Source: an uncultured Phycisphaerales bacterium | Lineage (GTDB): Bacteria > Planctomycetota > Phycisphaerae > UBA1845 > Fen-1342 | Length of the DNA: 37,292 bases | Assembly (NCBI GenBank): GCA_903914415.1 | Contig: CAIWOY010000192.1 | Location: 1-37,292, forward strand | Reading direction: 5' to 3' | Part shown: positions 4,291-35,855 of the stretch, piece after piece | Numbering within the stretch: the stretch's first letter is position 1 | Layout: each line of letters opens with the position of its first letter | Position numbers and translations under genes: made by a program | Notes under the pieces: generated by a model | Databases searched by the model: none | What the model was told of the DNA's origin: nothing | What the model saw: the letters and a program-made list of their open reading frames with translations, nothing else

Positions 4291-5700
4291 TTACAAGTTG
4301 GCCGAGCCGGCTCGCGTCGCCAACCCCGGTTCATACGGCAGTTCAATCCGAACGATCAGGCCGCCATCCGGCGCGTTGGCGGCGGATACCTTGCCGCCGT
4401 GAAATCGGATGGCCTGTTCGGTGATCGCCAGCCCCAGCCCGGTTCCACCAGTCTCGCGATCACGCGCATCACTGACGCGATAGAACGGTTCGAAAATGCG
4501 CTCCAGCGCTGCGTCAGGCACACCGGGGCCGTGGTCACGGATCTCCAACATGGCGCAAGCGGAGGTTTCGTCTGTTATCTGCCGCAACGAGGCCTCCACG
4601 TCCGTGCCGGTTGCCGTGTGTCGCACCGCGTTCCGCATGACGTTCTCAAGGGCGCTTCTTAAAAGCGCCACGGACCCATCCACAGTACATTTGTCACAAT
4701 GGTCGATACGCACGCGCTGGTTGTGTCCGGCGGCTTCGAAGTCGGCATCCGCGGCGACCTCCCGCACCAGTTGGTCCAAAGCAACTGCAGTGCGCGCCGG
4801 CTCCTGGCCCCCGCCTTCCAGCCGCGCGAGCACGAGCAATTGACCAATGAGTTCGTCCAGGCGTTCTGCTTCTTCTTCGATTCGGTCCAGGGAAACGGGC
4901 GTTCCGGTTGTCTGTTGCTCACGGCCAAGCTCCAGCGCGACATTCAGGCGGGCGAGTGGCGAACGGAGCTCGTGCGAGATGTCGCGCAGCAGGCGTCGTT
5001 GCGTCGCCACGAGCGACTCGAGACGCTCGGCCATGAAGTCGAAGTCGCAGCCCAGCTCTCCCAATTCATCACGCCGGTGACCGGCCAGCGGGCCCACCCG
5101 CACAGCGAGATCGCCCTGCGCCAAACGACGCGTCGCAGCGCGCAGCCGTCGGATGGGGGCAGCGAGATAGCGCGCCAGCGCGTAGCACACCACCGCCGCT
5201 GTCAATACGACCGCCCCCAGCCGCCGCAACAACCCGCTGGGGTCGGCCAACAGCTCGCCAAGTGGACCACCGGTTGGCACCACGACGAACGCATACCGGC
5301 GTCCGGCCGAATCGCAAACCGGGGCTGCAATCAGCGGTCCGTCTGCGACGCGCTGAGTGTCTGCCTGGCCGGAGTCCAGGACACGGGCGGCCATTTCCGC
5401 TGCCCCGGCCGGGGCCGGCCGCCCCGATAACTCTACACGGCCGCTGTCGAACAGCACGCTATCAAGGCGCAGCTTCTGCTCCAACTCTGCGCAGTACGTG
5501 GCGAGCGCCGCACGACCGCCGCGCTCCCAGCGGTCGACGGCGCTCTGGCCGTGCAGGCCGATGCTGTTCACCAGAAAGTCCAGCGGGCCCGCGCGCGTGC
5601 CCCGCGCCCGGTCCCAGAGGTCCAGGCCGATGAACACCGCCGCGACCAAGATGGTGGCCAGCCAGAACCACAAGAAGATCTTAAGAAACAGACTTCGCAT
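4291..5700 (-). CDS. CpxA-type sensor histidine kinase
   Basis: An inner-membrane sensor kinase that autophosphorylates on His and passes phosphate to the regulator encoded just upstream. From ATG 5700 (469 aa) there is a membrane segment at residues 6-27, an extracytoplasmic domain of about 130 residues, and a second membrane segment near 160-180. Next come a HAMP-like region (RRLAQGDLAVRV), the H box RDISHELRSPLARL with His at about 243, an N box ENVMRNAVRH, and G boxes GHGPGVPD and GGTGLGLAI. H box and layout resemble CpxA. ATG 5718 is possible, but the hydrophobic start fits 5700 better. It lies 114 bp downstream of the regulator on the same strand. The CpxP-like lipoprotein divergent from the pair suggests an envelope-stress role by analogy; the real signal is unknown. 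Confidence 0.9.
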   Translation of the reverse strand: MRSLFLKIFLWFWLATILVAAVFIGLDLWDRARGTRAGPLDFLVNSIGLHGQSAVDRWERGGRAALATYCAELEQKLRLDSVLFDSGRVELSGRPAPAGAAEMAARVLDSGQADTQRVADGPLIAAPVCDSAGRRYAFVVVPTGGPLGELLADPSGLLRRLGAVVLTAAVVCYALARYLAAPIRRLRAATRRLAQGDLAVRVGPLAGHRRDELGELGCDFDFMAERLESLVATQRRLLRDISHELRSPLARLNVALELGREQQTTGTPVSLDRIEEEAERLDELIGQLLVLARLEGGGQEPARTAVALDQLVREVAADADFEAAGHNQRVRIDHCDKCTVDGSVALLRSALENVMRNAVRHTATGTDVEASLRQITDETSACAMLEIRDHGPGVPDAALERIFEPFYRVSDARDRETGGTGLGLAITEQAIRFHGGKVSAANAPDGGLIVRIELPYEPGLATRAGSANL

Positions 5701-5770: not shown

Positions 5771-5786
5771 GCGAGCGTCCGCTCGC
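5771..5786. repeat. Short perfect hairpin between regulator and kinase genes
   Basis: GCGAGCG (5771-5777) and CGCTCGC (5780-5786) pair perfectly around a 2-nt turn, in the 114-bp gap between the two genes. It has no T-run, so it may attenuate, process or stabilise the message, or be an interspersed GC-rich repeat. Confidence 0.45.
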
Positions 5787-5814
5787 GGGCGCAAACGAGC
5801 GCGCGGCCGCAGCG

Positions 5815-6603
5815 CTAGCCAGACCCGGTGTTTCGCTCGGTGTCACGCCCTACGGGCCAGCGCCTCGGGCCAGCATACATGTATCCCAGCCCGCGCACGG
5901 CTTTGATCCGATCGGCGCCTTCCGGTGTCGCTTCGAGCTTGCGTCGCAGGTTGCTCACGTGCATGTCCACGCTGCGATCGAGCGGCGTGAACCGGCGGCC
6001 CAGCGCCTTTCTCGCCAATTCATCACGGTCAACCACACTCCCGGCATCCCGCAGGAGCATTTCAAGCAGCAAAGCTTCTGTTTCGGTCAGAGTGATCCGC
6101 TGCTTACCGCACCGCACGAAACGGGCAGCTACATCAAGCTCCAGGTCGCCGACGCTGAGCCTTTCGCCAGCTCGCGTGGTCGCTTCGCCCCCACGGGCGC
6201 GACGCAGAATCGCATGCACCCGGGCGAGCAGCTCCCGCGCGTTGAAGGGTTTGGGCAAGTAGTCGTCCGCGCCCATTTCGAGGCCGACAATCCGGTCAAC
6301 ATCGTCGCCCCGTGCCGTGAGCATCAGAACCGGGACGGCCGATTGCGCGCGAATGCGCCGCAGGACTTCGAAGCCGTCGCTGGGAGGCAGCATGACATCC
6401 AGAATGACGACCCCGTAGTCGCCGCTGAGCGCGCCCCGCACGCCTTCCTCGCCATCATGGACGGCATGCACGACAAAGCCGTTGGCACCGAGGTATTCCG
6501 TCAACAGCTTGCACAGCTTGACGTCGTCATCGACGATCAGCAGATGCGCAGCCGGGCCTGCTTCGGAATTGTCCGGCGCGGGCGTCAGCTCCGACGGGCT
6601 CAT
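5815..6603 (-). CDS. OmpR/CpxR-family response regulator
   Basis: A DNA-binding response regulator, probable partner of the kinase at 4291-5700. From ATG 6603 (262 aa) the receiver domain spans about residues 20-135, with acidic pocket VDDD, phospho-acceptor Asp at about 69 (VVILDVMLP) and LTARGDD / KPFNARELLARV. A linker leads to an OmpR-type winged helix (LTETEALLLEMLLR, DRSVDMHVSNLRRKL, IKAVRGLGYMY). The frame extends to a TTG at 6654. ATG 6603 is preferred because the conserved domain begins 20 residues after it, although neither start has a clear ribosome-binding site. A palindrome resembling a CpxR half-site pair lies just upstream (6660-6676), which suggests autoregulation. The region up to 6946 is shared with the divergent lipoprotein gene. 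Confidence 0.92.
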   Translation of the reverse strand: MSPSELTPAPDNSEAGPAAHLLIVDDDVKLCKLLTEYLGANGFVVHAVHDGEEGVRGALSGDYGVVILDVMLPPSDGFEVLRRIRAQSAVPVLMLTARGDDVDRIVGLEMGADDYLPKPFNARELLARVHAILRRARGGEATTRAGERLSVGDLELDVAARFVRCGKQRITLTETEALLLEMLLRDAGSVVDRDELARKALGRRFTPLDRSVDMHVSNLRRKLEATPEGADRIKAVRGLGYMYAGPRRWPVGRDTERNTGSG

Positions 6604-20664: not shown

Positions 20665-23424
20665 GTGCCGAAACGCACGCCCGAGGACGAAGCCCGAGAC
20701 CTGATCGACGAGCAGCTTGCCGCCTGCGGCTGGCTTGTGCAGGATCGTGACGAAGCCGACATCCACGCCGGCATCGGGGTCGCCATCCGCGAGTTCCCGC
20801 TCGAAGGCGGCGACGAGGCGGATTACCTGCTCTACGCCGACGGCAAGGCGATTGGCGTCGTCGAGGCGAAGCCGAAGGGCACCACGCTGACGGGGGTCGA
20901 GACGCAGTCCGCCAAGTACGTCCGGGGGCTGCCCACGAGCCTGCCCACGTATCATCGCCCGCTGCCCTTCAGCTACGAAAGCACCGGCGTCGAAGCGCGC
21001 TTCACGAACCGGCTCGATCCGGATCATCGCAGCCGCGAGGTCTTCGCGTTCCACCGGCCCGAGACCCTGATCGAGTGGGCCACGCGCCCCGCGCAGGTTC
21101 GCGACGCGCTGCGGACGCTGCCGCCCCTGATGCCCGGCAGCCTGTGGGACGTACAGCAGCGGGCGATCAAGAACCTCGAAGAATCGCTCGCTGAGAACCG
21201 CCCGCGTGCTCTGATCCAGATGAGCACCGGCAGCGGCAAGACCTTCGCGGCCGTCAACTTCGTCTACCGGCTGATTAAGCACGCCGACGCCCGGCGCGTC
21301 CTCTTCCTGGTCGATCGGACCAACCTGGCGGAGCAGGCGCTCGACGAGTTCCAGCAGTTCGACACGCCGGACGACGGTCGGAAGTTCACGGAGCTGTACA
21401 ACGTCCAACATCTGCAAAGCAGCACGATCGACCGCGTCAGCCGGGTCTGCATCACGACCATTCAGCGCCTCTACGCCGCCCTGCAAGGTGAAGACCTCGA
21501 TCCCGAGTTGGAGGAAGGGTCGATCTTCGAGTCCGCCAGCCCGCTGCTGAAGCCGCCCGCGCCGGTCGCGTACAACCCCGCCATCCCGATCGAGACCTTC
21601 GACTTCATCATCGCGGACGAATGCCACCGATCCATCTACAACCTCTGGCGGCAGGTGCTTGACTACTTCGACGCCTTCCTGATCGGGCTGACGGCGACCC
21701 CCTCGAAGCAGACCATCGGCTTCTTCAATCAGAACCTCGTCATGGAGTACGCCCACGAGCAAGCGGTCGCCGACCAAGTCAACGTGGGCTTCGACGTTTA
21801 CCGCATCCGCACGCGCATCACCGAGCAGGGCTCAAAGGTCGATAAGGGCTTCTACATCGACAAACGCGATCGCGAGACCCGCGCTCGGCGTTGGCAGCAA
21901 CTCGACGACGACCTGATCTACGACGAGAAAAAGCTCGATCGTGATGTCGTCACGCCCGACCAGATCAGGACGGTCATCCGCGCGTTCAAGGACGCCCTCT
22001 TCACCGAGCTATTCCCCGGCCGCACCCACGTCCCCAAGACGCTGATCTTCGCCAAGGACGACAGCCACGCCGACGACATCGTCCAGATCGTCCGCGAGGA
22101 ATTCGGCAAGGGTAACGAGTTCTGCCAGAAAATCACGTACAAGACGACCGGCGCACCTCCCAAGACGCTGATTCGCGAGTTCCGCAACAGCTACTTCCCC
22201 CGCATCGCCGTCACCGTGGACATGATCGCCACCGGCACGGACATCAAGCCGCTCGAAATCGTCTTCTTCATGCGCTCCGTCAAGAGCCGCCTGTTCTTCG
22301 AGCAGATGAAAGGCCGCGGCGTCCGGGTCATCGGCGATACCGACTTCCAGGCGGTCACGCCCGATGGCGGAGCCAAGACGCACTTTTTCATCGTCGATGC
22401 CGTCGGCGTCTGCGAAGCCGCCAAGACCGACACGAGGCCCCTGGAGCGCAAGCCGCAGGTCTCCTTCGAGAAGCTGATGGAGGCGGTCGCCTTCGGCAAC
22501 GTGGACGAGGATGTCATCTCGTCCGTTGCCGGCCGTCTCGCCCGGCTGGATCACCGGCTCAGCCACGAGCAGCGGCAGGAGATCGCCGAAGTCACCGGCG
22601 GCCAGTCCCTGACCCAGATCGTGGGGACGCTCGTCAAGGCCCTCGACGCCGATCAGCAGGTCGAACGAGCCAAGGTCGAGTTCAAGACCGACAATCCGAC
22701 CGACGAGCAGGTCGAGAAGGCAGCGGTCAAGCTGCTGACGGAAGCCACTAAGCCCCTGCGGACTGCCAAGGCGCGCAACAAGATCGTCGAGATCAAGCAG
22801 TCCTTCGAGCAGACCATCGACACAATCAGCGCCGACGAGTTGCTCGAAACCGGCTTTAGTGCCAAATCGCTGGATCGAGCGAAATCGGTCGTCGCCAGCT
22901 TCGAGAAGTTCATCGCCGAGCACAAGGACGAGATCACCGCCCTCCAGGTGCTCTACAGCCAGCCCTACCGGCGCCGGCTGAAGTTCGCGGACATCAAGGA
23001 GCTGGCGGCCGCCATCGCCAAACCGCCGCTCGGCCTGACTACGGAGACCCTCTGGCGGGCGTATCAGGCGCTCGAAAAGTCGAAGGTCCACGGCAGCGGC
23101 GGAAAGCAACTCACCGACATCGTCTCGGTCGTCCGCTACGCCCTGCATCAGGACCAGACGCTCGCGCCCTTTGCCGAGTCGGTGAGCGAGCGTTTTACGC
23201 GCTGGGTGGCGACCCAGCAGGCTCAGGGGCGATCCTTCACGCCGGAGCAGATGCGCTGGCTGGAGCTGATCCGGGACCACATCGCCGCGAGCATGACGAT
23301 GACGGTGGACGACTTCGAGTACACGCCATTCAACGAGGAGGGCGGCATCGGCAAGGTCTATCAGGTCTTCGGCAACGAGTTCAACAAGCTGCTAGATGAG
23401 TTGAATGAGGTGCTGGCGGCATGA
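20665..23424 (+). CDS. hsdR: Type I restriction enzyme R subunit (EcoEI-like)
   Basis: The motor and nuclease subunit of a type I restriction complex, which translocates DNA and cuts unmodified DNA with HsdM2S. GTG 20665 has GAGGGT upstream; length is 919 aa. The PD-(D/E)xK nuclease is near the N-terminus (Asp53 in EADYLL, Glu67/Lys69 in GVVEAK). The SF2 helicase follows with Walker A STGSGKT (187-193), DECH box (318-321), LTATPS, and motif VI QMKGRGVRV. The C-terminal part (about 600-919) is the EcoEI R C-terminal domain that contacts the methylase. The last 39 residues (from VDDFEYTPFNEEGGIGK to the stop) are repeated downstream at 25173-25292, and a partial copy at 27211-27303. The stop forms ATGA with a 14-codon mini-frame. 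Confidence 0.96.
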   Translation: MPKRTPEDEARDLIDEQLAACGWLVQDRDEADIHAGIGVAIREFPLEGGDEADYLLYADGKAIGVVEAKPKGTTLTGVETQSAKYVRGLPTSLPTYHRPLPFSYESTGVEARFTNRLDPDHRSREVFAFHRPETLIEWATRPAQVRDALRTLPPLMPGSLWDVQQRAIKNLEESLAENRPRALIQMSTGSGKTFAAVNFVYRLIKHADARRVLFLVDRTNLAEQALDEFQQFDTPDDGRKFTELYNVQHLQSSTIDRVSRVCITTIQRLYAALQGEDLDPELEEGSIFESASPLLKPPAPVAYNPAIPIETFDFIIADECHRSIYNLWRQVLDYFDAFLIGLTATPSKQTIGFFNQNLVMEYAHEQAVADQVNVGFDVYRIRTRITEQGSKVDKGFYIDKRDRETRARRWQQLDDDLIYDEKKLDRDVVTPDQIRTVIRAFKDALFTELFPGRTHVPKTLIFAKDDSHADDIVQIVREEFGKGNEFCQKITYKTTGAPPKTLIREFRNSYFPRIAVTVDMIATGTDIKPLEIVFFMRSVKSRLFFEQMKGRGVRVIGDTDFQAVTPDGGAKTHFFIVDAVGVCEAAKTDTRPLERKPQVSFEKLMEAVAFGNVDEDVISSVAGRLARLDHRLSHEQRQEIAEVTGGQSLTQIVGTLVKALDADQQVERAKVEFKTDNPTDEQVEKAAVKLLTEATKPLRTAKARNKIVEIKQSFEQTIDTISADELLETGFSAKSLDRAKSVVASFEKFIAEHKDEITALQVLYSQPYRRRLKFADIKELAAAIAKPPLGLTTETLWRAYQALEKSKVHGSGGKQLTDIVSVVRYALHQDQTLAPFAESVSERFTRWVATQQAQGRSFTPEQMRWLELIRDHIAASMTMTVDDFEYTPFNEEGGIGKVYQVFGNEFNKLLDELNEVLAA
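23305..23424 (+). repeat. hsdR tail repeat, copy A
   Basis: The final 120 bases of hsdR (39 codons plus stop). Copy B at 25173-25292 differs at 7 of 120 positions, all silent third-base changes. Copy C at 27211-27303 matches its last 93 bases at about 87%. The unit covers VDDFEYT to LNEVLAA and its stop. It marks the edges of the added cargo genes. Confidence 0.9.
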
Positions 23425-23465
23425 CAAGTACGCAACTCCTGGTCGTCACACTCACGCAAGGGTGA
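23421..23465 (+). CDS. Possible 14-codon coupling mini-ORF
   Basis: ATG 23421 overlaps the hsdR stop (ATGA) and encodes MTSTQLLVVTLTQG before a stop at 23463-23465, eight bases ahead of the ATG of the next gene (23473). It may carry ribosomes from hsdR to the membrane-protein gene. It could equally be the decayed start of a former downstream gene. Confidence 0.25.
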   Translation: MTSTQLLVVTLTQG

Positions 23466-23472
23466 TTCTCGC

Positions 23473-25125
23473 ATGAAGCTCCGACACGTGATGGTGTTTC
23501 TTTCACTCGGCTGCGTCGCGCTGTTGGCAGCTCAAATCGATCAGCTATCGCGCCCCCTTGTCGCCCTCTTGGGCACGGTCGCTGGAGCATGTGCCTCGGT
23601 CGCAGCGTCCGCATACGTCGAGAGTATCTCGCGGCGACGCGATATAGCCCGACTGGTTGACCAGGCACTCTCCCTCGGTGCTTCGCGCCCAGCGTATGAC
23701 ATCGCCACCGCGCGATTGAGCCTGGCGGAGGCCGATTCGGCGCTCGCCTTTCGGCAGTCCGCCGGCCGCTATGCTCCGCCTGCCTTGGCCCTCGTGGCCT
23801 TCGAGCGCGTTAGGAACGCGATGCGCGAGTTCGATTGGAACGGCGCGCTAACAAGCGCCAGCGGGCTTGACCTCGCGTTCATGGGGGCGGAGAGCGCCTT
23901 GCCCGCAGGAAAGCGAGGCGCGTGCGCCAGGCTGACGGGGCGTCTTTGTGACAACGTGCTTGCGTCGGCAATAGTCTCCGGGCGTACTCTCAGTGAGGTG
24001 GACTCCACTTTCCCCGGGTGCACTGCGCGCGCCCTGACATCCCAATGCGGTCCATATCTCACGTCGATTCTGCGCGGTCAGGACTGGCGGAACTTCGGCA
24101 TGATGAAACGACTCCAGACCATCGCGGACGCGGTGAGCCGGATCGCAAACGCCGAGGGAGTTCATCCCATTGAGATATTCGATCCGGTGATTGCAGCGCT
24201 CGACGCCAGGGACGAGCTGGTCCATGCGGATGCCCTAGACTCCGGTCCTTATCTTCAGCGAGACGGCTGCCTTGTGGACCTTCTCCTGCTTGGGATTCTG
24301 GGGGTTGGAAGACAGTACGGGCCACAGGTTGTATTGGAGCCGGCGCACGTCACCTGCATAACCAATGTCCTTGCGAGGCTAGGGATTCGAGTATCCGACC
24401 CAACCGATCTGACTGTTTCCGGGGCGCTGTTCCAGTATGTGTGCCACCGCCTGGGCGTACCGTCATTGAGCCTTGCGGACGCGCTCTATCAGTTATCCGA
24501 GCGGTGGATTGTCAGCTCAACGGTGCCGAGTATGCGCGTGCTTGTCTTGATCAATCGAGAGCTGCTCATGCCCGCCGAGCCAAAGCGGTTGTTCGAGGCT
24601 CTGGTGGAGCAGCAGCCTTTCCGGTCGCTTGCGAGGGATCGCTACGATGTGGCATCGCTGGCCGTGTTGAGCACCGTTATCAGCCGACGCCTCGTTCACT
24701 TGTATGCGGATGATTGTCGCCGGATCATTGCGGAACTTCTCGACTGCCGGCGCGATGCAGCCTATTTCCCGGGCGTGCAACTGGCAAATGCTCTCCTCCA
24801 GATCATGGGCGACGCCGAGCAAGTCGGGCGCAAGGGCTTGCGGGACCTCGCCGAGTCGAGCCACGTGTATTCGGTCAAGATGCGCGCGACAAGGAATCTG
24901 ATGATCTTGTCTGCCCGGGACGAGGACGGTCTTGCATACCAGCAGTACAGCCGTCTGCTGTCGGAGATTCTGAGCCACAAAGGTATTGCGCGCGGCGAGG
25001 AGGAGATGGACGCGGTCGCGAGAGAGCCGCTCCAGGCGTGCGACTGGTACTATATCAACGTACCGTTTGCGCAACCATTCATCCCGCGGTGGAATGGACT
25101 CGGCGACCCGCTGCCGATATGGTAA
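23473..25125 (+). CDS. Membrane-anchored protein of unknown function within the R-M island, 550 aa
   Basis: No family is recognised. The N-terminus has two hydrophobic segments (VMVFLSLGCVALLAAQI at residues 6-22 and PLVALLGTVAGACASVAASA at about 28-47). A basic stretch (ESISRRRDIARLV) then places about 500 residues on the cytoplasmic side. The large domain is helical and Leu/Ala-rich, with repeated helix pairs suggestive of a HEAT/TPR-like solenoid, but no exact repeat and no nuclease, ATPase or protease motif. The C-terminal YYINVPFAQPFIPRWNGLGD is distinctive. ATG 23473 has AAGGGTGA about ten bases upstream. GC content looks slightly lower than in hsdR. It is bracketed by hsdR tail copies A and B, which suggests insertion. 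A phage-sensing or accessory defence role is only a contextual guess. Confidence 0.85.
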   Translation: MKLRHVMVFLSLGCVALLAAQIDQLSRPLVALLGTVAGACASVAASAYVESISRRRDIARLVDQALSLGASRPAYDIATARLSLAEADSALAFRQSAGRYAPPALALVAFERVRNAMREFDWNGALTSASGLDLAFMGAESALPAGKRGACARLTGRLCDNVLASAIVSGRTLSEVDSTFPGCTARALTSQCGPYLTSILRGQDWRNFGMMKRLQTIADAVSRIANAEGVHPIEIFDPVIAALDARDELVHADALDSGPYLQRDGCLVDLLLLGILGVGRQYGPQVVLEPAHVTCITNVLARLGIRVSDPTDLTVSGALFQYVCHRLGVPSLSLADALYQLSERWIVSSTVPSMRVLVLINRELLMPAEPKRLFEALVEQQPFRSLARDRYDVASLAVLSTVISRRLVHLYADDCRRIIAELLDCRRDAAYFPGVQLANALLQIMGDAEQVGRKGLRDLAESSHVYSVKMRATRNLMILSARDEDGLAYQQYSRLLSEILSHKGIARGEEEMDAVAREPLQACDWYYINVPFAQPFIPRWNGLGDPLPIW

Positions 25126-25133
25126 GGACAACG

Positions 25134-25292
25134 ATGGCACTGGCCCCTTCCGCTGGCGAGCATGCATTTACCGTGGACGACTTTGAGTACACGCCCTTCA
25201 ACGAGGAGGGCGGGATCGGCAAGGTCTATCAGGTCTTCGGCAACGAGTTCAACAAGCTACTGGATGAGTTAAACGAGGTGCTGGCGGCATGA
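25134..25292 (+). CDS. HsdR-tail mini-protein, 52 aa (copy B)
   Basis: ATG 25134 has AGGA five bases upstream and lies eight bases after the stop of the membrane gene. Thirteen unique residues (MALAPSAGEHAFT) are followed by 39 residues identical to the HsdR C-terminus. All seven base differences from hsdR in this stretch are synonymous, which suggests that the copy is translated and under selection, or was recently converted. The stop overlaps the start of the AlbA_2 gene (ATGA at 25289). It may serve as a coupling leader for that gene, or as a free peptide that mimics the HsdR surface contacting HsdM/HsdS. Confidence 0.6.
   Translation: MALAPSAGEHAFTVDDFEYTPFNEEGGIGKVYQVFGNEFNKLLDELNEVLAA
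25173..25292 (+). repeat. hsdR tail repeat, copy B
   Basis: 120 bases equal to the hsdR 3' end except for seven silent third-position changes (for example ttc/ttt, cca/ccc, ggc/ggg, ttg/tta, aat/aac). It is placed between the membrane-protein gene and the AlbA_2 gene. Confidence 0.9.
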
Positions 25293-27154
25293 GCCTCCCG
25301 ACCTTTGACGAGTTGTGGCAAAAACTCTGTTCCGGCGACGAGTCGGTGGAGATCGAGGCCAAGCGCGCGGACGAGGTCGGCAAGAGTGTCTTGAGCACGG
25401 TTTCGGCGTTCGCAAACGAGCCCGACCGCGGCGGCGGTTATCTGTTGCTAGGCGCGGCGCGGCAGGAAAACTCGTTGTTTCCCGAGTACGAGATCGTCGG
25501 CGTCCGGGACCCCGATAAGGTCCAGGCTGATTTGGCCACGCAGTGCCGCGAGGTGTTCAGCGTTCCGATCCGGCCGGACATCCAAGTCGAGCAGCACAAC
25601 CACAGAAACGTCATCGTCGTGCACATTCCCGAGGCCGCCGACCACGACAAGCCCGTTTTCATCAAGAGCAGAGGGTTGCCGAGGGGCGCATTCCGCCGCG
25701 TGGGCTCGACGGATCAGGTCTGCACGGACGACGACATCGCCATGTTCTATCAGGCGCGTGGCCAGCGCTCTCACGATGAGACCGCGTTGCCCGACACGTC
25801 GCTCGACGACGTTGACGCGCGCGCGCTGCAGGAATACCGTCGGCTTCGCGTCGAGACGGGCACGGAGAGCGAACTGGTTGGCTACTCCGACGAGGATCTG
25901 CTGTACGCGCTCGGTGCCACTGCGCAAGTTGACGGCCGTGTCTGCTTGACCGTCGCGGGCCTCGTCGTGCTCGGCAAGGCAATGGCTCTGCGCCGGCACC
26001 TGCCCATGACGCGCGTCGACTACATCCGGGTGGAGGGACGCGAATGGGTGCCCGATCCGGATAAGCGTTACCAGTCGATCGAGAAGCTCGGTCCGCTCAT
26101 CCTGACGATCCCCACGCTGATCGGCCAAGTCCTGGAGGACATCCCGAAGGCGTTCACGCTGGCCGAAGACGGCGTTCGCCGGCGCGACGTGCCCCTGATC
26201 CCGCGCAAGGTCATCCGCGAGGCGCTGGTCAACTCCGTGATGCACCGCAGCTATCAGCGGCACCAGCCGGTCCAGATCATCCGCTACGCCAACCGCATCG
26301 AGATTAAGAACCCCGGCTACTCGCTCGTGCCGGATGATCGCCTCGGCGATCCCGGCTCGAAGACCCGCAACCCGAAGATCGCCGCCATCCTGCACGACGT
26401 TGGTTTTGCCGAGACGAAGGGCACCGGCATCCGTGCCATGCGCGAAGCGATGGAGCAGGCCAACCTGTCCCATCCGCTGTTCGAGTCGGACCGAGAGCGG
26501 GATGAGTTCACCGTCCGTTTGCTAGTCGTCCACCTGCTCAGCCCCGCCGACTGGCAGTGGCTCTCTCAATTCAAGGACTGCAACCTCGACAATGACGATG
26601 CCCGCTCCTTGATCGTTATTCGCGAATTGGGGGCCATCGACAACGCCGCCTACCGCTCGATTAACCACGTGGACACCCTCACGGCCAGCGGCCGCCTCCG
26701 CCGACTGCGAGATGCCGGGTTGCTGGAGCAGCGCGGCAAGGGTGCCGCCACGTACTACCGGCCCGGCGGCCGGCTCCTGGCCGCCCTCGGCACCCCAACG
26801 CCGCCCGAACCCTTGCGCACGGACACAACGGCGCTGCGCTCGGAGTCCGCGCCCTTGCGCTCGGAGTTCGACGGCTTGCGCTCGGAGTTACCGGACCCAG
26901 TCCGCTCTCAGTTGGCGAATCTGGGCCGTCGAGCGACGCCCGAGGAACTCGACGCCGTTCTGATCGCGCTTGCGTGCTGGAAGCCGCTTAGCCTCGAAGA
27001 GCTGTCCGCATTGACCGGCCGAGCAACAACGCACCTCCGGATGCGAAACATCAAGCGGCTCCTGACGGCGGGTCGGCTGCGCTATCTCTATCCGGAGGAG
27101 CCGAATCACCCGGATCAGAAGTACGTCGCGGCAGACCAAGGGGGTGCTGCGTGA
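25289..27154 (+). CDS. AlbA_2 (Schlafen-like) and HATPase-type putative DNA-binding protein
   Basis: A 621-aa protein of a type often seen inside type I R-M loci. The N-terminal 150 residues are an AlbA_2/divergent-AAA-4-type domain (ESVEIEAKRADEVGKSVLS, SAFANEPDRGGGYLLLGA). A GHKL ATPase-like C-terminal module of the HATPase_c_4 kind spans about residues 300-400 (VIREALVNSVMHRSYQRHQP, NRIEIKNPGYSL, ETKGTGIRAM). A winged helix and then a heptad-like linker follow (ALRSESAPLRSEFDGLRSEL), with a second HTH-like domain at the C-terminus (LSLEELSALTGRATTHLRMR). It starts at ATG 25289, overlapping the 52-aa mini-protein. The stop overlaps the next mini-ORF (GTGA). A regulatory or accessory role in the R-M system is inferred from position. 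Confidence 0.88.
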   Translation: MSLPTFDELWQKLCSGDESVEIEAKRADEVGKSVLSTVSAFANEPDRGGGYLLLGAARQENSLFPEYEIVGVRDPDKVQADLATQCREVFSVPIRPDIQVEQHNHRNVIVVHIPEAADHDKPVFIKSRGLPRGAFRRVGSTDQVCTDDDIAMFYQARGQRSHDETALPDTSLDDVDARALQEYRRLRVETGTESELVGYSDEDLLYALGATAQVDGRVCLTVAGLVVLGKAMALRRHLPMTRVDYIRVEGREWVPDPDKRYQSIEKLGPLILTIPTLIGQVLEDIPKAFTLAEDGVRRRDVPLIPRKVIREALVNSVMHRSYQRHQPVQIIRYANRIEIKNPGYSLVPDDRLGDPGSKTRNPKIAAILHDVGFAETKGTGIRAMREAMEQANLSHPLFESDRERDEFTVRLLVVHLLSPADWQWLSQFKDCNLDNDDARSLIVIRELGAIDNAAYRSINHVDTLTASGRLRRLRDAGLLEQRGKGAATYYRPGGRLLAALGTPTPPEPLRTDTTALRSESAPLRSEFDGLRSELPDPVRSQLANLGRRATPEELDAVLIALACWKPLSLEELSALTGRATTHLRMRNIKRLLTAGRLRYLYPEEPNHPDQKYVAADQGGAA

Positions 27155-27303
27155 GCGAAGCGTGCTCCGAACGGCTGCCCGCCGGGACCGCACGATCGGC
27201 CGAGCACCGAAACGAGGAGGGCGACATCGGCAAGGTCTATCGAGTCTTCGGCGACGAGTTCAACACGCTGCTGGATGAGTTGAATGAAGCCCTCGCAGCC
27301 TGA
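27151..27303 (+). CDS. HsdR-tail mini-protein, 50 aa (copy C, diverged)
   Basis: GTG 27151 overlaps the stop of the AlbA_2 gene (GTGA). Twenty unique residues are followed by NEEGDIGKVYRVFGDEFNTL and LDELNEALAA, a diverged copy of the HsdR C-terminus with seven residue changes. The end overlaps the start of hsdS (ATG 27284) in another frame, so it is embedded in a chain of overlaps. Its retained open frame despite about 13% base divergence supports translation. It is either a coupling leader for hsdS or a small HsdR-like peptide. Confidence 0.55.
   Translation: MSEACSERLPAGTARSAEHRNEEGDIGKVYRVFGDEFNTLLDELNEALAA
27211..27303 (+). repeat. hsdR tail repeat, copy C (partial, diverged)
   Basis: 93 bases aligning without gaps to 23332-23424 with 12 differences, several of them changing the residue. 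It is the oldest or least constrained of the three copies and lies immediately before hsdS. Confidence 0.8.
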
Positions 27304-28915
27304 GCAAAAGCACGGCGGCTCGAAACTGCCCGCCGGGTGGGTGGAGTGCTGCCTTGGCGACATACTCCGAGTCATCCGAGGCGTCACGTACAAGAAGGAA
27401 AACGCTGCCGCACAAGAAAAGGACGGGTTCGTCCCCATTCTTCGTGCAACGAACATCAACGACGGTCTCACCTTCGCCGACTTGGTGTACGTTCCGCCAA
27501 CCTGCGTGAGCCAGGACCAGATGCTGCAAGCAGGTGATGTCGTCATTGCGGCTTCGAGCGGCAGCAAGAGCGTCGTCGGCAAAGCCGCCTTGTTCAAAGG
27601 CGAGTGGCGCGGCAGCTTCGGAGCATTCTGCTACGGTCTTCGTCCCGCCCCTGAAATGGACGCCGGCTACATTGCAGACTTCCTGCGGACCGCGCAGTAT
27701 CGCAATTACGTCTCGACCGTCGCTGCCGGCGTCAATATCAACAACCTGCGTCGAGAACACATAGAGCGCTTCACGTTTCCGCTTGCTCCCCGACCCGAGC
27801 AGTCACGCATCGTCAGCGAGATCGAGAAGCACTTTTCCCGGCTCGACGCCGGCGTGGCGGCGTTGAAGCGGGTCGGGGCGAATCTGCGGCGGTACAAGGC
27901 GTCGGTCCTGAAGGCGGCCTGCGAGGGACGCCTCACCGCCGCCTGGCGCGCCGCCCATCCGAACGTGGAACCGGCGTCCGAGCTGCTCAAACGCATCCTC
28001 CGCGACCGCCGCCGCCGCTGGGAGGAATCCGAACTCGCCAAGCTGCGCGCCAGGGGCAAGCCACCCAAGGACGACCGGTGGAAGGAGCGGTACGAGGAGC
28101 CCCGACTTCCACGACCGGATGCCCTGCCGGAATTGCCAACCGGTTGGGCTTACTCTCCTCTCGACCCGCTTGTGGCCGCCACGAACAACGCGATCAAGAG
28201 AGGGCCATTCGGAAGCGCGATTAAGAAGGAGCTGTTTGTCTCGGTGGGCTTCAAAGTGTATGAGCAGAAGCACGCCATATACGGTGATTTCACTCTTGGC
28301 GAGTACTACATCGATCAGCACAAGTTCGATGAGCTGCGAGCATTTGAGGTAAGGCCCGGCGATCTCATCATAAGCTGCTCGGGGACGGTCGGCAGGACAG
28401 CAATTGTCCCCTTGGGTGCACAACCGGGCATTATCAATCAGGCACTCCTCAAGCTGACATTCGACGCGGATGTCATTCTGGCACGTTACTTTGAGATCGT
28501 GTTCGCAGCCATGCTTGATACTCTTCTCCGTCAGAATGTACGCGGGTCGGCGATGGCCAATATCACCGGAGTCAAGGAACTGAAACAGATTGCATGGCCG
28601 CTTCCGCCGCTGGATGAACAGCGCGAGATCATCAAAGAGGTTGACCGCTTGTTCTCGCTGGGGGACGAGGTTGCAAACGACCTTGGCCGAGTTCGTCGGC
28701 GCGCTACTCATCTCCGTCAGTCGATCCTGCGTAACGCCTTCGAGGGCAAGCTGGTCGAGCAAGACCCGCACGACGAGCCGGCGTCGGTACTCCTGGAGCG
28801 CATCCGAGCCTTGCGAACACCCGATGCCATGCAACAAGTTCATGCCTCGCACCAGGCAGCGCGGCACAAGGACCCACTCCGGCCGTCACGGACGCCGAGG
28901 AGTACTAGAAGATGA
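27284..28915 (+). CDS. hsdS: Type I restriction-modification specificity subunit
   Basis: The DNA-recognition subunit, which directs both methylation and cleavage. ATG 27284 lies within the tail copy C; length is 543 aa. It has the usual two target-recognition domains. TRD1 starts at LPAGWVECCLGDI and ends near NINNLRREHIERFTFPLAP. A central conserved helix follows (RPEQSRIVSEIEKHFSRLDA, VLKAACEGRLTAAWR). TRD2 starts at LPTGWAYSPLDPLV and ends near MANITGVKELKQIAWPLPPL, with the second conserved helix (DEQREIIKEVDRLFSLGDEV, LRQSILRNAFEGKLV). The half around TRD2 looks less GC-rich than TRD1, consistent with TRD exchange. The stop overlaps the next gene (ATGA at 28912). The target sequence cannot be read from this. 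Confidence 0.95.
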   Translation: MKPSQPEQKHGGSKLPAGWVECCLGDILRVIRGVTYKKENAAAQEKDGFVPILRATNINDGLTFADLVYVPPTCVSQDQMLQAGDVVIAASSGSKSVVGKAALFKGEWRGSFGAFCYGLRPAPEMDAGYIADFLRTAQYRNYVSTVAAGVNINNLRREHIERFTFPLAPRPEQSRIVSEIEKHFSRLDAGVAALKRVGANLRRYKASVLKAACEGRLTAAWRAAHPNVEPASELLKRILRDRRRRWEESELAKLRARGKPPKDDRWKERYEEPRLPRPDALPELPTGWAYSPLDPLVAATNNAIKRGPFGSAIKKELFVSVGFKVYEQKHAIYGDFTLGEYYIDQHKFDELRAFEVRPGDLIISCSGTVGRTAIVPLGAQPGIINQALLKLTFDADVILARYFEIVFAAMLDTLLRQNVRGSAMANITGVKELKQIAWPLPPLDEQREIIKEVDRLFSLGDEVANDLGRVRRRATHLRQSILRNAFEGKLVEQDPHDEPASVLLERIRALRTPDAMQQVHASHQAARHKDPLRPSRTPRSTRR

Positions 28916-29805
28916 ACATCTTTGTGAGTACGTATAACGCTGACGCGAACTTCGATACGACTATTAGGGAGGGTGTATTCGGCGCACCGACCCGTGACGG
29001 CAAGATGAAAAACAAATTCATGAAGCTAGAACCCGGGGACATCATTGCGATCCGACGCCGGGGTGCGGGGCCGCTCCGCTTCTTCGATCATTGTCGAGTC
29101 ATGGACGATCCCTATGATGAGAAGGACGCGCGGATACCACGGCTCCTGTGGCCCGATGAAATCGCACAGGGACAGTGTCTGTATCCCTTTCGAGCCAAGG
29201 TGGATTTCCAGGGTGTGCCACGCTTGCCCGGGCTCTACACCTCCGACTGGGAGGACTGGCTATCACTGAAGTGGACGACCGAGAGTGGTCACCCATACAA
29301 ACAGGGCAATCTCCGAGCCCTGTTTACCGGCAATTTCGTACCGCCACTGCATCTCGGTGACCGCCGCACGCTTCGAAAGTTGTTGCGTTTTCTTGAAACG
29401 CCCCGCCCGCTAAAGCCCGACCGTCGAGACCGGACGGGGTACGTCGGGGAGCAGTGTGTGTACGGGGAGCTTCAGCGCGAGTTTGTGCCGCCGGAGTTCG
29501 CTGTCATTTGGACTGCGAAGAACAATCGCTACGCCCCCTGGGACATAGAGGTGACGCGGAACAACGCACGTCATGTCATCGTGGAAGTCAAAAGTACCAC
29601 CCGTAGGGATGCCGTATCGATCGGGTTCATGTCTCAAGATGAGAAGTTGCTGCTGGAAGACCCGAAAACACTGTATCGACTGTACCATGTCACGCTAGAC
29701 GCTGCATTGAGCCCCAAAACGGCGCGAATCCGCCCGTTAAGTATAGCGGACCTGACATTTACGCCGGTGAAATATCGCGTCGACGTGCGCGGACAGAGAC
29801 AATGA
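28912..29805 (+). CDS. EVE/PUA-like domain fused to DUF3883-like PD-(D/E)xK nuclease
   Basis: A 297-aa protein between hsdS and hsdM. Residues 1-140 resemble an EVE/PUA-type fold that reads modified bases (MNIFVSTYNADANFDTTIRE, KNKFMKLEPGDIIAIRRRG, RFFDHCRVMDDPYDEKDAR). The C-terminal half fits DUF3883 (NOV C-terminal): GYVGEQCVYGELQREF, then DIEV with Asp211 and HVIVEVKSTT with Glu225 and Lys227, and a final SQDEKLLLEDPKTLYRLYHV. Asp...ExK is the nuclease core pattern. The combination suggests a modification-dependent nuclease, complementary to the host R-M enzyme. It is coupled by ATGA at both ends (28912 and 29802). Domain assignment is by eye: the C-terminal half is more certain than the N-terminal half. 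Confidence 0.82.
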   Translation: MNIFVSTYNADANFDTTIREGVFGAPTRDGKMKNKFMKLEPGDIIAIRRRGAGPLRFFDHCRVMDDPYDEKDARIPRLLWPDEIAQGQCLYPFRAKVDFQGVPRLPGLYTSDWEDWLSLKWTTESGHPYKQGNLRALFTGNFVPPLHLGDRRTLRKLLRFLETPRPLKPDRRDRTGYVGEQCVYGELQREFVPPEFAVIWTAKNNRYAPWDIEVTRNNARHVIVEVKSTTRRDAVSIGFMSQDEKLLLEDPKTLYRLYHVTLDAALSPKTARIRPLSIADLTFTPVKYRVDVRGQRQ

Positions 29806-31301
29806 ACCACGCCCAGCAAATCGTCCAGAAGCTCTGGAACTACTGCAACGTCCTCCGCGACGACGGGCTCAGCTACGGCGATTACGTCGAGCAGCTCACG
29901 TTCCTGCTGTTCCTGAAGATGGCGGACGAGCGGACCCAGCCGCCCTTCAACAAGCCGAGCAGCATCCCGGACCGGTTTTCGTGGCAGCAGCTCCTCAAGA
30001 AGGACGGCGACGCGCTGGAGGTCCAGTACCGCCGGACGCTCGAAGGCCTCGGCAAAGAGCCCGGTATGCTGGGCATCATCTTCCGCAAGGCGCAGAACAA
30101 GATTCAGGACCCCGCCAACTTGCGCCGCCTGATCGTGGACCTCATCGACCGCGAAAGCTGGCTGACGCTCGACGCCGACGTGAAGGGTGACGCCTACGAG
30201 GGGCTGCTTCAGAAGAACGCCGAGGACGTGAAGGGCGGTGCCGGGCAGTATTTCACGCCGCGCCCGCTGATCCAGGCCATCGTGGACTGTGTGCGCCCCG
30301 GCCCGGCCGAGACGATCTGCGACCCGGCCTGTGGTACGGGCGGGTTCCTGCTGGCCGCGTACGACTTTATTTCGCGCAGCCACAAGCTGAACCCCGATCA
30401 AAAGCGCCACCTGAAGCACAAGGCGCTGCGCGGCTGGGAGATCGTGGACGCCACCGCCCGGCTGTGCGTCATGAACCTGTATCTCCACGGCATCGACCCC
30501 GACGACAGCCCGATCCGCGTGACGGATTCGCTGCGGAGCGACGGCGGCGAGCGCTTCTCGATGGTCCTGACCAATCCGCCGTTCGGGAAGAAAAGCAGCG
30601 TGGCGGTGATAAACGAGGAGGGCGACGCCGAAACGCAGGAGCAGGTCATCGTCCGCGACGACTTCTGGGCGTCCACCAAGAACAAGCAGCTTAACTTCCT
30701 GCAACACGTCAAGACGCAGCTTCAGATCAACGGGCGCGCCGCCATCGTCGTCCCCGACAACGTCCTTTTCGAGGGTGGCGCGGGCGAGACGATCCGCCGG
30801 AAGCTGCTGCATGAATGCGAGGTCCACACCCTGCTGCGCCTGCCCACCGGCATCTTCTATGCCCAGGGTGTCAAGGCGAACGTCCTGTTCTTCGACCGCA
30901 AGCCCGCCAGCGAGACGCCGTGGACCAAGCAGCTTTGGATTTACGACCTGCGGACGAACATGAACTTCACGCTCAAGACGAATCCGCTGAAGCGCGGCGA
31001 CCTCGACGAGTTCGTGGCGTGCTTCCGCCCCGACAATCGGCACGAGCGCAAATCGACGTGGAGCGAGAAGCGCAAGCCGGACGGCCGTTGGCGGGGGTTC
31101 TCCTACGACGAGCTGGTCAAACGCGACAAGGCCAACCTGGACATCTTCTGGCTCAGGGACGAGAGCCTCGAAGACTCCCAGAACCTGCCGGAGCCCGGTG
31201 TAATCGCCGCGGAGATCGTCGAAGACCTGCAAGCGGCGCTCGACCAGTTCTCCGAGATCACGGCAGACCTCGGGCAGGTGAAGACACCGACCGCCGGGTA
31301 G
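29802..31301 (+). CDS. hsdM: Type I restriction-modification methyltransferase subunit
   Basis: N6-adenine DNA methylase of the complex, 499 aa. The N-terminal HsdM helical domain (LWNYCNVLRDDGLSYGDYVE, QLTFLLFLKMADE) is followed by GQYFTPRPL (148-156), SAM-binding motif I DPACGTGGF (174-182) and catalytic motif IV NPPF (258-261). The C-terminal part has LRLPTGIFYAQGVKANVLFF and ends in a helix that contacts HsdS. ATG 29802 overlaps the stop of the EVE/nuclease gene. The last position in the locus is unusual, since hsdM normally precedes hsdS. The stop is followed by the convergent minus-strand cluster from 31394. Confidence 0.96.
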   Translation: MNHAQQIVQKLWNYCNVLRDDGLSYGDYVEQLTFLLFLKMADERTQPPFNKPSSIPDRFSWQQLLKKDGDALEVQYRRTLEGLGKEPGMLGIIFRKAQNKIQDPANLRRLIVDLIDRESWLTLDADVKGDAYEGLLQKNAEDVKGGAGQYFTPRPLIQAIVDCVRPGPAETICDPACGTGGFLLAAYDFISRSHKLNPDQKRHLKHKALRGWEIVDATARLCVMNLYLHGIDPDDSPIRVTDSLRSDGGERFSMVLTNPPFGKKSSVAVINEEGDAETQEQVIVRDDFWASTKNKQLNFLQHVKTQLQINGRAAIVVPDNVLFEGGAGETIRRKLLHECEVHTLLRLPTGIFYAQGVKANVLFFDRKPASETPWTKQLWIYDLRTNMNFTLKTNPLKRGDLDEFVACFRPDNRHERKSTWSEKRKPDGRWRGFSYDELVKRDKANLDIFWLRDESLEDSQNLPEPGVIAAEIVEDLQAALDQFSEITADLGQVKTPTAG

Positions 31302-33094: not shown

Positions 33095-34069
33095 CTAATC
33101 CAGCACGACCCGCCGCTTGAGCCGACCCGTGAGCGCCGACACGCTGCTCGGGTCAAGCACCTCCTGCTTCAGCAGCGCGCAAGCCTGGCTGAGTTGCGTG
33201 GCCAGCGCCGGTTGCTGGGCCAGGTCCTCGCCGGTGACGCCGTGGATCTGGGCCTTGAGCTTCTGGAGTTGGGCGGCGGTGTCGGCGTCGCCGAAGATGT
33301 TCATGGCGTGGAAGTGGTCGATCTTGCGGCGGATCGCCTGCAGCGTCTTGCCGTGCACCTGGCCGCCGGCCGTGATGACCTGGTCGCAGAAGGCGGCCAC
33401 CTCCTGGCGGAACGCCAGCACGTACCCCTGCACGAACTGCCGGCACTCGGCGGCCAGGTTGGCCTTCATGGTGGCCAGTTGCTCGACCTGGACCTCCCGG
33501 CGCTGCACTTCCGCCGCAATGTCCTCCACCTCGGCGGCACTGGCGCCCGACACCTTGAACGAGTGCCAGCCCAGCGCGAACCGCTTGCGCAGCTCCCAAG
33601 CGGACGGGTAGGCCGAGTCGGGCACGTCGGGGTGGGCGGTCTGCCAGGCCGCCTTCAGCGTGGGATAGTCGGCGATGAACTTCTCGACCGCAGCGTCGAA
33701 CTCGGCCCGGAGCGCGTCGAGCGTCGCGACCAGCTGGCCGGCGTGCGGCCAGGGCACGAAGTGCGCCCCCGCGGCCGGGAACGGCTGGCTGACCCGGGCC
33801 AGGGCGTGGCGGGCCTTCTGCTCGAGGAAGCTGAATATCTTGCGGCCCTTTTCGGGGTCGATCAGGTCCTTGGTGCCGAAGCTGGCGATGGCCTGGCGTT
33901 GGATGCGGTCGGTCGTGAGGTTCAGCTCGGCGGGCTCATTGCCGGCCCGGCAGGGCCAGGACGAGACGCGGATGACGAACAGGACGCCGAGCTGGAACAG
34001 GTTGATGGGCTCGTGGTCGGTCTGCGGGTGGGCCTGCGGGGTGGGCGCAGGTGCGGTGAGCGTAGTCAT
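33095..34069 (-). CDS. Coiled-coil protein, 324 aa, possibly DUF3150-like
   Basis: ATG 34069 has GGAG at -13; ATG 34084 is possible. After a Pro/Thr-rich tail and a short region (INLFQLGVLFVIRVSSW) the protein is almost wholly helical (EKGRKIFSFLEQKARHAL, LDALRAEFDAAVEKFIADYP, ASAAEVEDIAAEVQRREVQV). Conserved-looking points are the trio of PFPAAGAHFVPWPHAG and the KTLQAIRRKIDHFHAMN helix. This resembles DUF3150 proteins, which occur next to MoxR-type or other AAA ATPases. The AAA gene lies just upstream (34133-35701) on the same strand, so they likely form a complex. Family call is tentative. Confidence 0.65.
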   Translation of the reverse strand: MTTLTAPAPTPQAHPQTDHEPINLFQLGVLFVIRVSSWPCRAGNEPAELNLTTDRIQRQAIASFGTKDLIDPEKGRKIFSFLEQKARHALARVSQPFPAAGAHFVPWPHAGQLVATLDALRAEFDAAVEKFIADYPTLKAAWQTAHPDVPDSAYPSAWELRKRFALGWHSFKVSGASAAEVEDIAAEVQRREVQVEQLATMKANLAAECRQFVQGYVLAFRQEVAAFCDQVITAGGQVHGKTLQAIRRKIDHFHAMNIFGDADTAAQLQKLKAQIHGVTGEDLAQQPALATQLSQACALLKQEVLDPSSVSALTGRLKRRVVLD

Positions 34070-34132
34070 GGGTTGTGGCTCCATTCAAAGGGAAGCAGCG
34101 AAGTTGTGAATCGGGATTAAGCTGCGTGCGAC

Positions 34133-35701
34133 TCAGACGGTCACCCGCCGCTTGCGCGGCTGGCCGTTGAGCGGCGTGCTGGTGGGTTGGCCGTTGCCGG
34201 CTGGTTTCGTGTGGCCGTCGAGCCAGTGGGTCATCTCGGTAACGGCCTCGGGGTCCGTTTTCGACAGCGGCCGAATCTCGGGAACCGCGGCCAGCAGGTG
34301 GTCGTTGGTGAGCTGCTCGCCGGCGTGGAACGCCAGCTTGAGCCCCATCTGCACGACTTCCTTGATGTCCGCGCCCGTGTAGGCCTCACTTTGCTTCGCG
34401 AGCTGATCCAGGTCGAACTGCTGCGGGTCATGGCCGCGGAGCTTGAGGTGGATCCCGAAGATCTCCTGCCGCTCCGCGTGCGTGGGCAGGTAGACGCCGT
34501 ACAGCTCGTCGAAACGCCCTTTGCGCGTGAACTCGACGGGCAGGGCCTTGATGTTGTTCGCCGTCGCGACGATGTACACCGGGCACGACCGATCGCTCAG
34601 CCACTTCAGGAAGATCCCGAAGCTGCGCTGCGCGGCGCCGCCATCGTGCTCGCCGCCCACACCGCCGAAGCCCTTCTCGATCTCGTCGAGCTGCAGCACG
34701 CAGGAACCCAGGCCTTCCAGCAAGCGGATCGCCTCGCGCATATTGCGCTCCGACTCGCCGACCCACTTGGACATGAGGCTGCCGACGTCGAGCTGGATCA
34801 GCGGCAGGCCCAGGTAGCTGGCGATGCACAGGCTCATCTGGGTCTTGCCGCCGCCTGAGATGCCAGCCAGCAGCAGGCCCCGTGGGAACTCGATGCCGAA
34901 CTTCCGGGCTTCGGTGCCGAAGCACGGCTTGTCGAGCTGGACGTGGCGCTTGACGTTGTCCCAGCCGCCGATGAGGTCCAGACCGCCGGCGGGCGGGTCC
35001 CGATACTCCAACAGCCCGGTCCGGCGGATGACCTCGGCCTTCTCGCGGAGGATCAGTCGGGCGGCCGCCCCGCTGAGTTTCTTGAACTTGCGCAAGGCCA
35101 GGGCCGTGCGGTCCTCGACCTGTTGCTGCGTCATGCCCCGGCAGGCGGTGATGATCGCCGGCAGCGCCTTTTCATCCAGCGGATGGTCTTCGGCCACGTA
35201 CTTGACGGCTTTCTCGATCGCCGTATCGTCCGGCAGCTTGAAGTCGATGCTGGTAATCTCGTGCTGGAGCACCGGCGGAATCTCAAAGTCGACCCCGACG
35301 AAGATCACCGTCCGGCCGCTGTGGGCCAGCACATCCCGGATCTCGGACAGCCAGGCGGTCACCAGGTCGCTGTACGCGAACGTGCGCTGGTTGAGGTAAT
35401 ACCCGAAGTTCTTCAGCACGAAGATGGCCTCTTCGGGCAGCTCCAGGATCTGCTGCGGCGCCGTTTGGGGCTGGGGCGGACCCAGCTCCGCGCCGGCGGC
35501 GGTCTTGGCTGGCTTGCCTTCCGCGTCCTGCCAGCCGGTGGCCGGCGACCAGACGAACACGGGACGGCCATCCGGCGGCAGGCCGGCGGCGATGTCTTTC
35601 AGCTCTTGCAGGAAACGCGCCTTCTCCGGCGTGTGGGCGTGCAGGTACGCATGCCCACTCAGGATGTAATCGGTCAGGCTGTCACGGAATGTGTTGCTCA
35701 T
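34133..35701 (-). CDS. Ycf46-like AAA+ ATPase, 522 aa
   Basis: ATG 35701 has CTGGAG upstream. The N-terminal domain of about 230 residues (EEAIFVLKNFGYYLNQRT, IRDVLAHSGRTVIFVGVDFE) and the linker EYRDPPAGGLDLIGGWDNVK match Ycf46. The AAA domain has Walker A GISGGGKT (280-287), KWVGESERNMREA pore/second motif, Walker B SCVLQLDEIEKG (333-344), sensor 1 IVATANNI and arginine-finger region RKGRFDELYGVYLP. The lid EAYTGADIKEVVQMGLKLAF is usual. First in a minus-strand cluster with a coiled-coil protein, DUF1257 and DUF2997 genes. In cyanobacteria the two relatives Ycf46 and Ycf35 are also known; a joint function is inferred. Confidence 0.9.
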   Translation of the reverse strand: MSNTFRDSLTDYILSGHAYLHAHTPEKARFLQELKDIAAGLPPDGRPVFVWSPATGWQDAEGKPAKTAAGAELGPPQPQTAPQQILELPEEAIFVLKNFGYYLNQRTFAYSDLVTAWLSEIRDVLAHSGRTVIFVGVDFEIPPVLQHEITSIDFKLPDDTAIEKAVKYVAEDHPLDEKALPAIITACRGMTQQQVEDRTALALRKFKKLSGAAARLILREKAEVIRRTGLLEYRDPPAGGLDLIGGWDNVKRHVQLDKPCFGTEARKFGIEFPRGLLLAGISGGGKTQMSLCIASYLGLPLIQLDVGSLMSKWVGESERNMREAIRLLEGLGSCVLQLDEIEKGFGGVGGEHDGGAAQRSFGIFLKWLSDRSCPVYIVATANNIKALPVEFTRKGRFDELYGVYLPTHAERQEIFGIHLKLRGHDPQQFDLDQLAKQSEAYTGADIKEVVQMGLKLAFHAGEQLTNDHLLAAVPEIRPLSKTDPEAVTEMTHWLDGHTKPAGNGQPTSTPLNGQPRKRRVTV

Positions 35702-35855
35702 GGCTGCTCCAGTGACTTTCACAAAGAGGGATCACGTACGTCATGCCAACCCGAACTGCGCGGCGCATCCTCCGGCTGGACGGGCGCGCGCCGGATCGAT
35801 GCCGCCCGGCTGGGCCGGCTGCGAATAGAATCAGCCGGGCCGGCGGAGTGGGAAC

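Follow-up and report, generated by a model that had tools for sequence, protein, structure and literature searches.

How genes come to be embedded in a tightly coupled operon without wrecking it is a question to which we found no answer in the literature that we searched. It is raised by the window analysed here, the whole stretch of 37,292 nucleotides of contig CAIWOY010000192.1 from an uncultured Phycisphaerales bacterium. Its hsdR, hsdS and hsdM genes lie on one strand, all three are matched by Pfam and PADLOC, and they constitute a type I restriction-modification (R-M) system. On the same strand, between hsdR and hsdS of this one defence system, lies the orphan gene ORF550. The features concerned are the following:

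20665..23424, plus strand: hsdR, type I restriction subunit of 919 aa (HSDR_N, ResIII/SNF2 helicase and EcoEI_R_C; Pfam and PADLOC)
23302..23424, plus strand: hsdR tail copy 1, the final 40 codons and stop, with an ATGA end and GAGG upstream (repeat search, reference copy)
23473..25125, plus strand: ORF550, orphan protein (open frame and codon periodicity; family matches absent)
25134..25292, plus strand: mini-ORF of 52 aa with hsdR tail copy 2 at 25170-25292 (repeat search; inspection of Shine-Dalgarno (SD) sequence and overlap)
25289..27154, plus strand: second cargo gene, 621 aa, SLFN_AlbA_2 and HATPase_c_4 (Pfam, E = 1e-10 and 5e-19)
27151..27303, plus strand: mini-ORF of 50 aa with hsdR tail copy 3 at 27181-27303, homology from about 27208 (repeat search)
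27284..28915, plus strand: hsdS, specificity subunit (PADLOC Specificity_I, E = 6e-111)
28912..29805, plus strand: NOV_C protein of 297 aa between hsdS and hsdM (Pfam PF13020, E = 1.3e-6)
29802..31301, plus strand: hsdM, methyltransferase subunit (PADLOC MTase_I, E = 1e-199)

The order is hsdR tail 1, ORF550, tail 2, the SLFN_AlbA_2 protein, tail 3, hsdS, NOV_C and hsdM, with two cargo genes in the slot between hsdR and hsdS (ORF550 and the AlbA_2 gene) and a tail copy after each. The NOV_C gene (28912-29805) overlaps hsdS and hsdM by 4 nt each, and its product gave weak PADLOC matches to TmtA and PDC-S36; several related operons hold other accessory ORFs between hsdS and hsdM. Downstream of the R-M operon, a DUF3150 protein is encoded beside an AAA+ ATPase on the minus strand (33095-35722).

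The ORF550 frame runs for 550 codons (ATG at 23473, TAA at 25123-25125); given the local base composition, an open stretch this long would arise by chance with a probability of about 6e-8. GC contents at its three codon positions are.66/.47/.71. When a codon table was built from the other genes of the window, this frame scored best among all six, at a level comparable to that of the accepted 297-aa gene. The open frame, the codon score and the coordinates bear out the preliminary description, made from the letters of the window, which had placed a 550-aa protein inside the R-M operon. Its GC3 of.71 is clearly lower than the values for hsdR and hsdM (.88 and.90), which fits a later acquisition. 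A search for a promoter of its own yielded no convincing candidate (1 found vs 1.4 expected), and internal repeats did not rise above those in shuffled sequences.

Hydropathy of the product peaks at residues ~1-26 and ~27-49, with a short loop between the peaks and the residues RRR directly after the second. This fits a membrane hairpin with both ends in the cytoplasm, a prediction in line with the two N-terminal membrane helices described earlier. In the large helical cytoplasmic domain of that description, said to lack recognised motifs, we too found no motif. AlphaFold2 (AF2) runs without an alignment returned unusable models (pLDDT 38 and 39), and the helical character predicted for the remaining ~500 aa comes from the very low-confidence pLDDT 38 model.

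Homology searches with ORF550 gave noise only in Pfam, NCBIfam, PADLOC, PHROGs and the PDB sequences. No relative was found by peptide scans of GTDB and IMG/VR, which reach close relatives, by tblastn against plasmids and phages, or in ~700 sampled genomes of relatives, phylum and class and of hsdR-bearing organisms. We dismissed five matches within the phylum (E 0.003-0.008 per genome) as chance hits, given that 392 genomes were searched. The ORFs of the other surveyed loci included no distant relative, and the searches made found no homologue that would make the family a recurrent member of defence loci. Of the checks that the preliminary description had proposed, the profile searches came back empty (family libraries and PDB without a match), structure prediction gave an unusable model (AF2 at pLDDT 38), and no other hsdR locus surveyed had ORF550 beside hsdR. 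Since it has neither a homologue nor a recognised domain, nothing in the protein itself ties it to defence; no catalytic site is apparent in it either, and ORF550 is an embedded defence candidate by its position only.

It is the hsdR tail repeats, a side remark in the preliminary description, that are the most informative feature of the locus. That they bracket ORF550 was confirmed at 23302-23424 and 25170-25292; the third copy, after the AlbA_2 gene, had been missed. Copies 1 and 2 are 93% identical over 123 nt, whereas copy 3 matches the hsdR 3' end at 87% over the last 93 nt. The mini-ORF of copy 2 has its own SD sequence and start (TAAGGA upstream, start 8 nt past the ORF550 stop), and its stop overlaps the start of the AlbA_2 gene (ATGA). 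That of copy 3 begins with a GTG overlapping the AlbA_2 stop and runs into the hsdS start at 27284. At 27284-27303, the NTGA overlap is missing from copy 3 (GCCTGA); the apparent hsdS start lies 20 nt further upstream, within the tail copy and in a different frame. What the insert has left behind is a copy of the hsdR 3' end, open and with a stop that overlaps the start of the next gene.

To place this arrangement among related operons, hsdR/hsdS junctions were collected by a GTDB scan with HsdR, which gave 48 loci, and by a profile search for the 52-aa tail in three sets of genomes (392 from the same phylum, 380 in a set centred on Chloroflexota and 398 in a proteobacterial set), the regions being retrieved. 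In 57 of the 101 loci with a recognisable HsdR tail, hsdS starts less than 100 nt from the hsdR stop, typically with a 4-nt overlap (NTGA), and an SD-like tetramer lies inside the hsdR end in 42 of the 56 hsdR genes that end in NTGA. Same-strand cargo separates hsdR from hsdS in about 16 of the 101 loci. Seven of these cargo loci carry an hsdR-tail scar before the next gene (8 scars, three phyla): the window with two scars and L089, L090 and L091 in the same phylum, L132 in the Chloroflexota-centred set, and L133 and L134 in the proteobacterial set. Loci were chosen for the similarity of their tails and scar loci were fetched on purpose, which makes the sample non-random, so 7/101 is not an estimate of prevalence. 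The aligned scars span 24-46 codons, and longer remnants can be detected with the same tail profile. When the last 123 nt of genes were searched by blastn for a repeat within 6 kb downstream, 5/95 hsdR genes gave a hit vs 1/414 other ORFs (Fisher p = 0.001); hsdS, which has internal repeats, gave 3/80 in the same background test. The hsdR/hsdS junction is a recurrent insertion slot, and the repeated-tail architecture recurs in other phyla. The scar is not required, since nine cargo loci have none; in most of these the cargo ends within ~25 nt of hsdS or overlaps it.

Three further loci resembled scar loci. At L035 (8972-12500), the tail and small toxin-antitoxin-like genes are repeated together 2.6 kb downstream, transposase fragments lie between, and hsdR is frameshifted; we regard it as a decaying segmental duplication and did not count it among the scars. 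At L096 and L108, the profile match past a short hsdR ORF is the sole tail of a frameshifted hsdR.

In all eight scars the frame is already open ahead of the cargo stop and stays open up to the start of the next gene. Five of them (copy 3, L089, L090, L133 and L134) have a start codon that overlaps the cargo stop; for the rest, the closest usable start is 9-69 nt past it. Spanning the distance from the cargo stop to the overlap with the next start, the scar ORFs look like translational relays, and we infer that the scar is a putative relay cistron. What scarred and most scarless cargo loci have in common is that a ribosome would stop at the hsdS start, as expected for termination-reinitiation. 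If hsdS and the other downstream genes are translated in this way from the hsdR end, inserts would have to hand ribosomes on, from the hsdR stop through cargo and mini-ORF to the next start, and the scar would persist. A 14-codon ORF at 23421-23465 may be the ribosome relay to ORF550 itself: it begins in the ATGA at the hsdR stop, and 7 nt separate its end from the start of ORF550.

Elsewhere the slot mostly holds toxin-antitoxin pairs and genes that are known anti-phage genes or candidates for this role. Pfam and PADLOC identified AAA_14-DUF4143 ATPases (PDC-S01) in L089, L134 and L096, a DUF1016/YhcG protein (PDC-S02) in L090 and a DUF3800 protein in L091. The L133 cargo consists of a HigB-type toxin and an HTH/M78 protein that matches PD-Lambda-2_B (E = 2e-150), a model also matched by the L095 cargo (2e-49). 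These PD-Lambda-2-like genes (L133 3965-5461, L095 4006-5436) occur in two phyla, one with an hsdR-tail scar and one without. HicA/HicB and an aspartyl-protease-like protein are found in L132. Several further cargo genes match no named family, and AlbA_2, DUF3800 and the 23S rRNA intervening-sequence protein in L111 are without an established defence role.

Repeats other than the tail flank the cargo at two loci. In L089 (reverse-complement coordinates), near-identical palindromes (GGGGCGTATTGC.ATACGCCCC) at 4080-4101 and 5984-6005 enclose the PDC-S01 cargo, and upstream of the scar lies a fragment similar to a REP-type transposase; together they are a possible clue to the arrival of the cassette. 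In L090 (reverse-complement coordinates), an 87-nt direct repeat (78%) at 4350-4436 and 5777-5863 flanks the DUF1016 cargo. Its second copy replaces the 3' half of the tail scar, with the frame still open and an ATGA end at the hsdS start.

An operon of the same family, its HsdR 79% identical, has an uninterrupted hsdR/hsdS junction and no ORF550. Its flanks are unrelated to those in the window, and such an empty site in other surroundings suggests that the whole operon moves. The reading that we prefer, and to which we give an even chance, is that ORF550 reached a mobile R-S-M type I operon by horizontal transfer, sits as cargo at its hsdR/hsdS junction and encodes a membrane-anchored candidate anti-phage effector, not an R-M subunit or tether; that it is a defence gene at all we likewise put at about one half. 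It would be expressed with hsdR and act independently of the R-M system, adding a second layer of defence, its hairpin in the inner membrane and its cytoplasmic helical domain either detecting infection or acting on the membrane. This final step, which draws on company and topology, is the weakest part of the proposal. An infection-sensing effector had been suggested in the preliminary description, and this idea gained indirect support: other phyla fill the slot with PD-Lambda-2, PDC-S01 and PDC-S02, and unrelated embedded systems have been published.

A bolder version, which we hold only tentatively, makes the hsdR 3' end a reusable docking module. Defence cassettes would enter between hsdR and hsdS with a copy of the tail, which would then serve as translated relay cistron, and could be stacked (two here) while subunit stoichiometry is preserved; ORF550 would represent a new defence family acquired by this route. 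The nested order tail1-ORF550-tail2-AlbA_2-tail3 suggests that the AlbA_2 cassette was inserted before ORF550.

All 8 differences between copies 1 and 2 are synonymous (neutral probability ~4e-6), and the L133 scar differs from its tail by 6 synonymous codons to 1 nonsynonymous. One explanation is that these tails diverged at the ends of functional hsdR alleles before recombination brought them together; the other is that copy 2 is itself under constraint. In the older scars (copy 3, with a change from GG to GD, and L089, L091 and L134), residues conserved or invariant among true tails have been lost, which favours recombined hsdR alleles over a constrained copy 2. Similar traces would be left by an element that integrates at the hsdR 3' end and supplies a replacement for the tail, the tail copies being attachment-site scars and ORF550 element cargo of unrelated function. 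The precedent is e14 at icd, where 3'-end insertion leaves a partial gene copy beyond the insert with mostly silent differences (PMC11148124). As there, a partial duplicate of the end of the target gene lies beyond the insert here, the 165-bp icd duplicate with its 12 exchanges and 2 amino acid changes (PMC11148124) comes close to the 123 bp and 8 exchanges in the window, and the nested order of tails and cargo fits serial integration. Unlike e14, however, the scars each accompany one gene, are unequal in length and have a frame that overlaps the next start. Scans of both cargo genes in the window and of the principal cargo proteins at other loci showed no integrase or other recombinase, though supply in trans is possible. 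The scars begin at differing tail positions between loci (24-46 aligned codons), and we rejected a constant attachment or crossover core on account of these differing lengths. We consider an e14-like element unlikely.

As to the function of ORF550, a guardian comparable to PrrC would stay silent while the restriction complex is intact and be triggered when a phage inhibits it. PrrC is a published type I-embedded effector that senses enzyme inhibition (PMC12707154), and co-translation with hsdR would suit a guard. But Pfam, NCBIfam and PADLOC revealed no PrrC-like ATPase or anticodon nuclease domain in ORF550, its pairing with HsdR is not conserved across other loci and a guard has no need of a membrane anchor; this role seems unlikely.

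The tail copies might instead act as micro-proteins, unattached HsdR docking tails that vie with HsdR itself for the methyltransferase and in this way adjust restriction. The synonymous bias of copy 2 and of the L133 scar would agree with this, as would the SD sequence and start that copy 2 possesses. The bias would also fit an allele donated by another hsdR, however, and both the older scars (copy 3, L091, L134), with conserved or invariant residues gone, and L090, which lost the 3' half of the tail, have kept an open frame; we judge micro-proteins very improbable. A tether for the restriction complex, the alternative in the preliminary description, would hold the complex at the membrane for restriction at the DNA entry site. 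The predicted N-terminal hairpin and the position adjoining hsdR speak for it, but the idea deserves hardly any credence, since ORF550 is absent from the 79%-identical operon and the other surveyed hsdR loci, shares no domain with the R-M subunits and has its slot filled elsewhere by unrelated proteins.

As embedded cargo, ORF550 is a candidate for a known class, defence genes embedded in other defence operons having already been published. The anti-phage system TgvAB (PMC11411939) and RloF (PMC4619093) lie between hsdR and hsdS, the anti-phage system DarTG2 between hsdS and hsdR (PMC12255303), and PDC families, modelled in PADLOC, have been catalogued from guilt by embedding (PMC10855318, PMC12988326). 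Like ORF550, all of these are unrelated same-strand genes between hsd genes; unlike the PDC families, ORF550 matches no PADLOC model. The PrrC anticodon nuclease is likewise embedded in a type I locus, EcoprrI (PMC12707154), but ORF550 differs from it in lacking the PrrC domain and in its predicted membrane hairpin. In what we could see of them, the TgvAB, RloF and DarTG2 reports do not describe a repeated hsdR tail such as is present here, and the searchable papers, which leave aside most subscription journals and bioRxiv preprints, gave no account of a tail-scar architecture. The repeated tail is a physical trace of cargo insertion events, and a downstream copy of the hsdR end offers a DNA signature by which embedded candidates, orphans like ORF550 included, can be discovered independently of homology. 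A known parallel to the proposed relay is translational coupling at ATGA overlaps, where 13 of 14 tested overlapping gene pairs showed strict termination-reinitiation (PMC6728339). Both have the stop/start overlap and the SD sequence within the upstream gene, but here a duplicated end of the upstream gene bridges an inserted gene.
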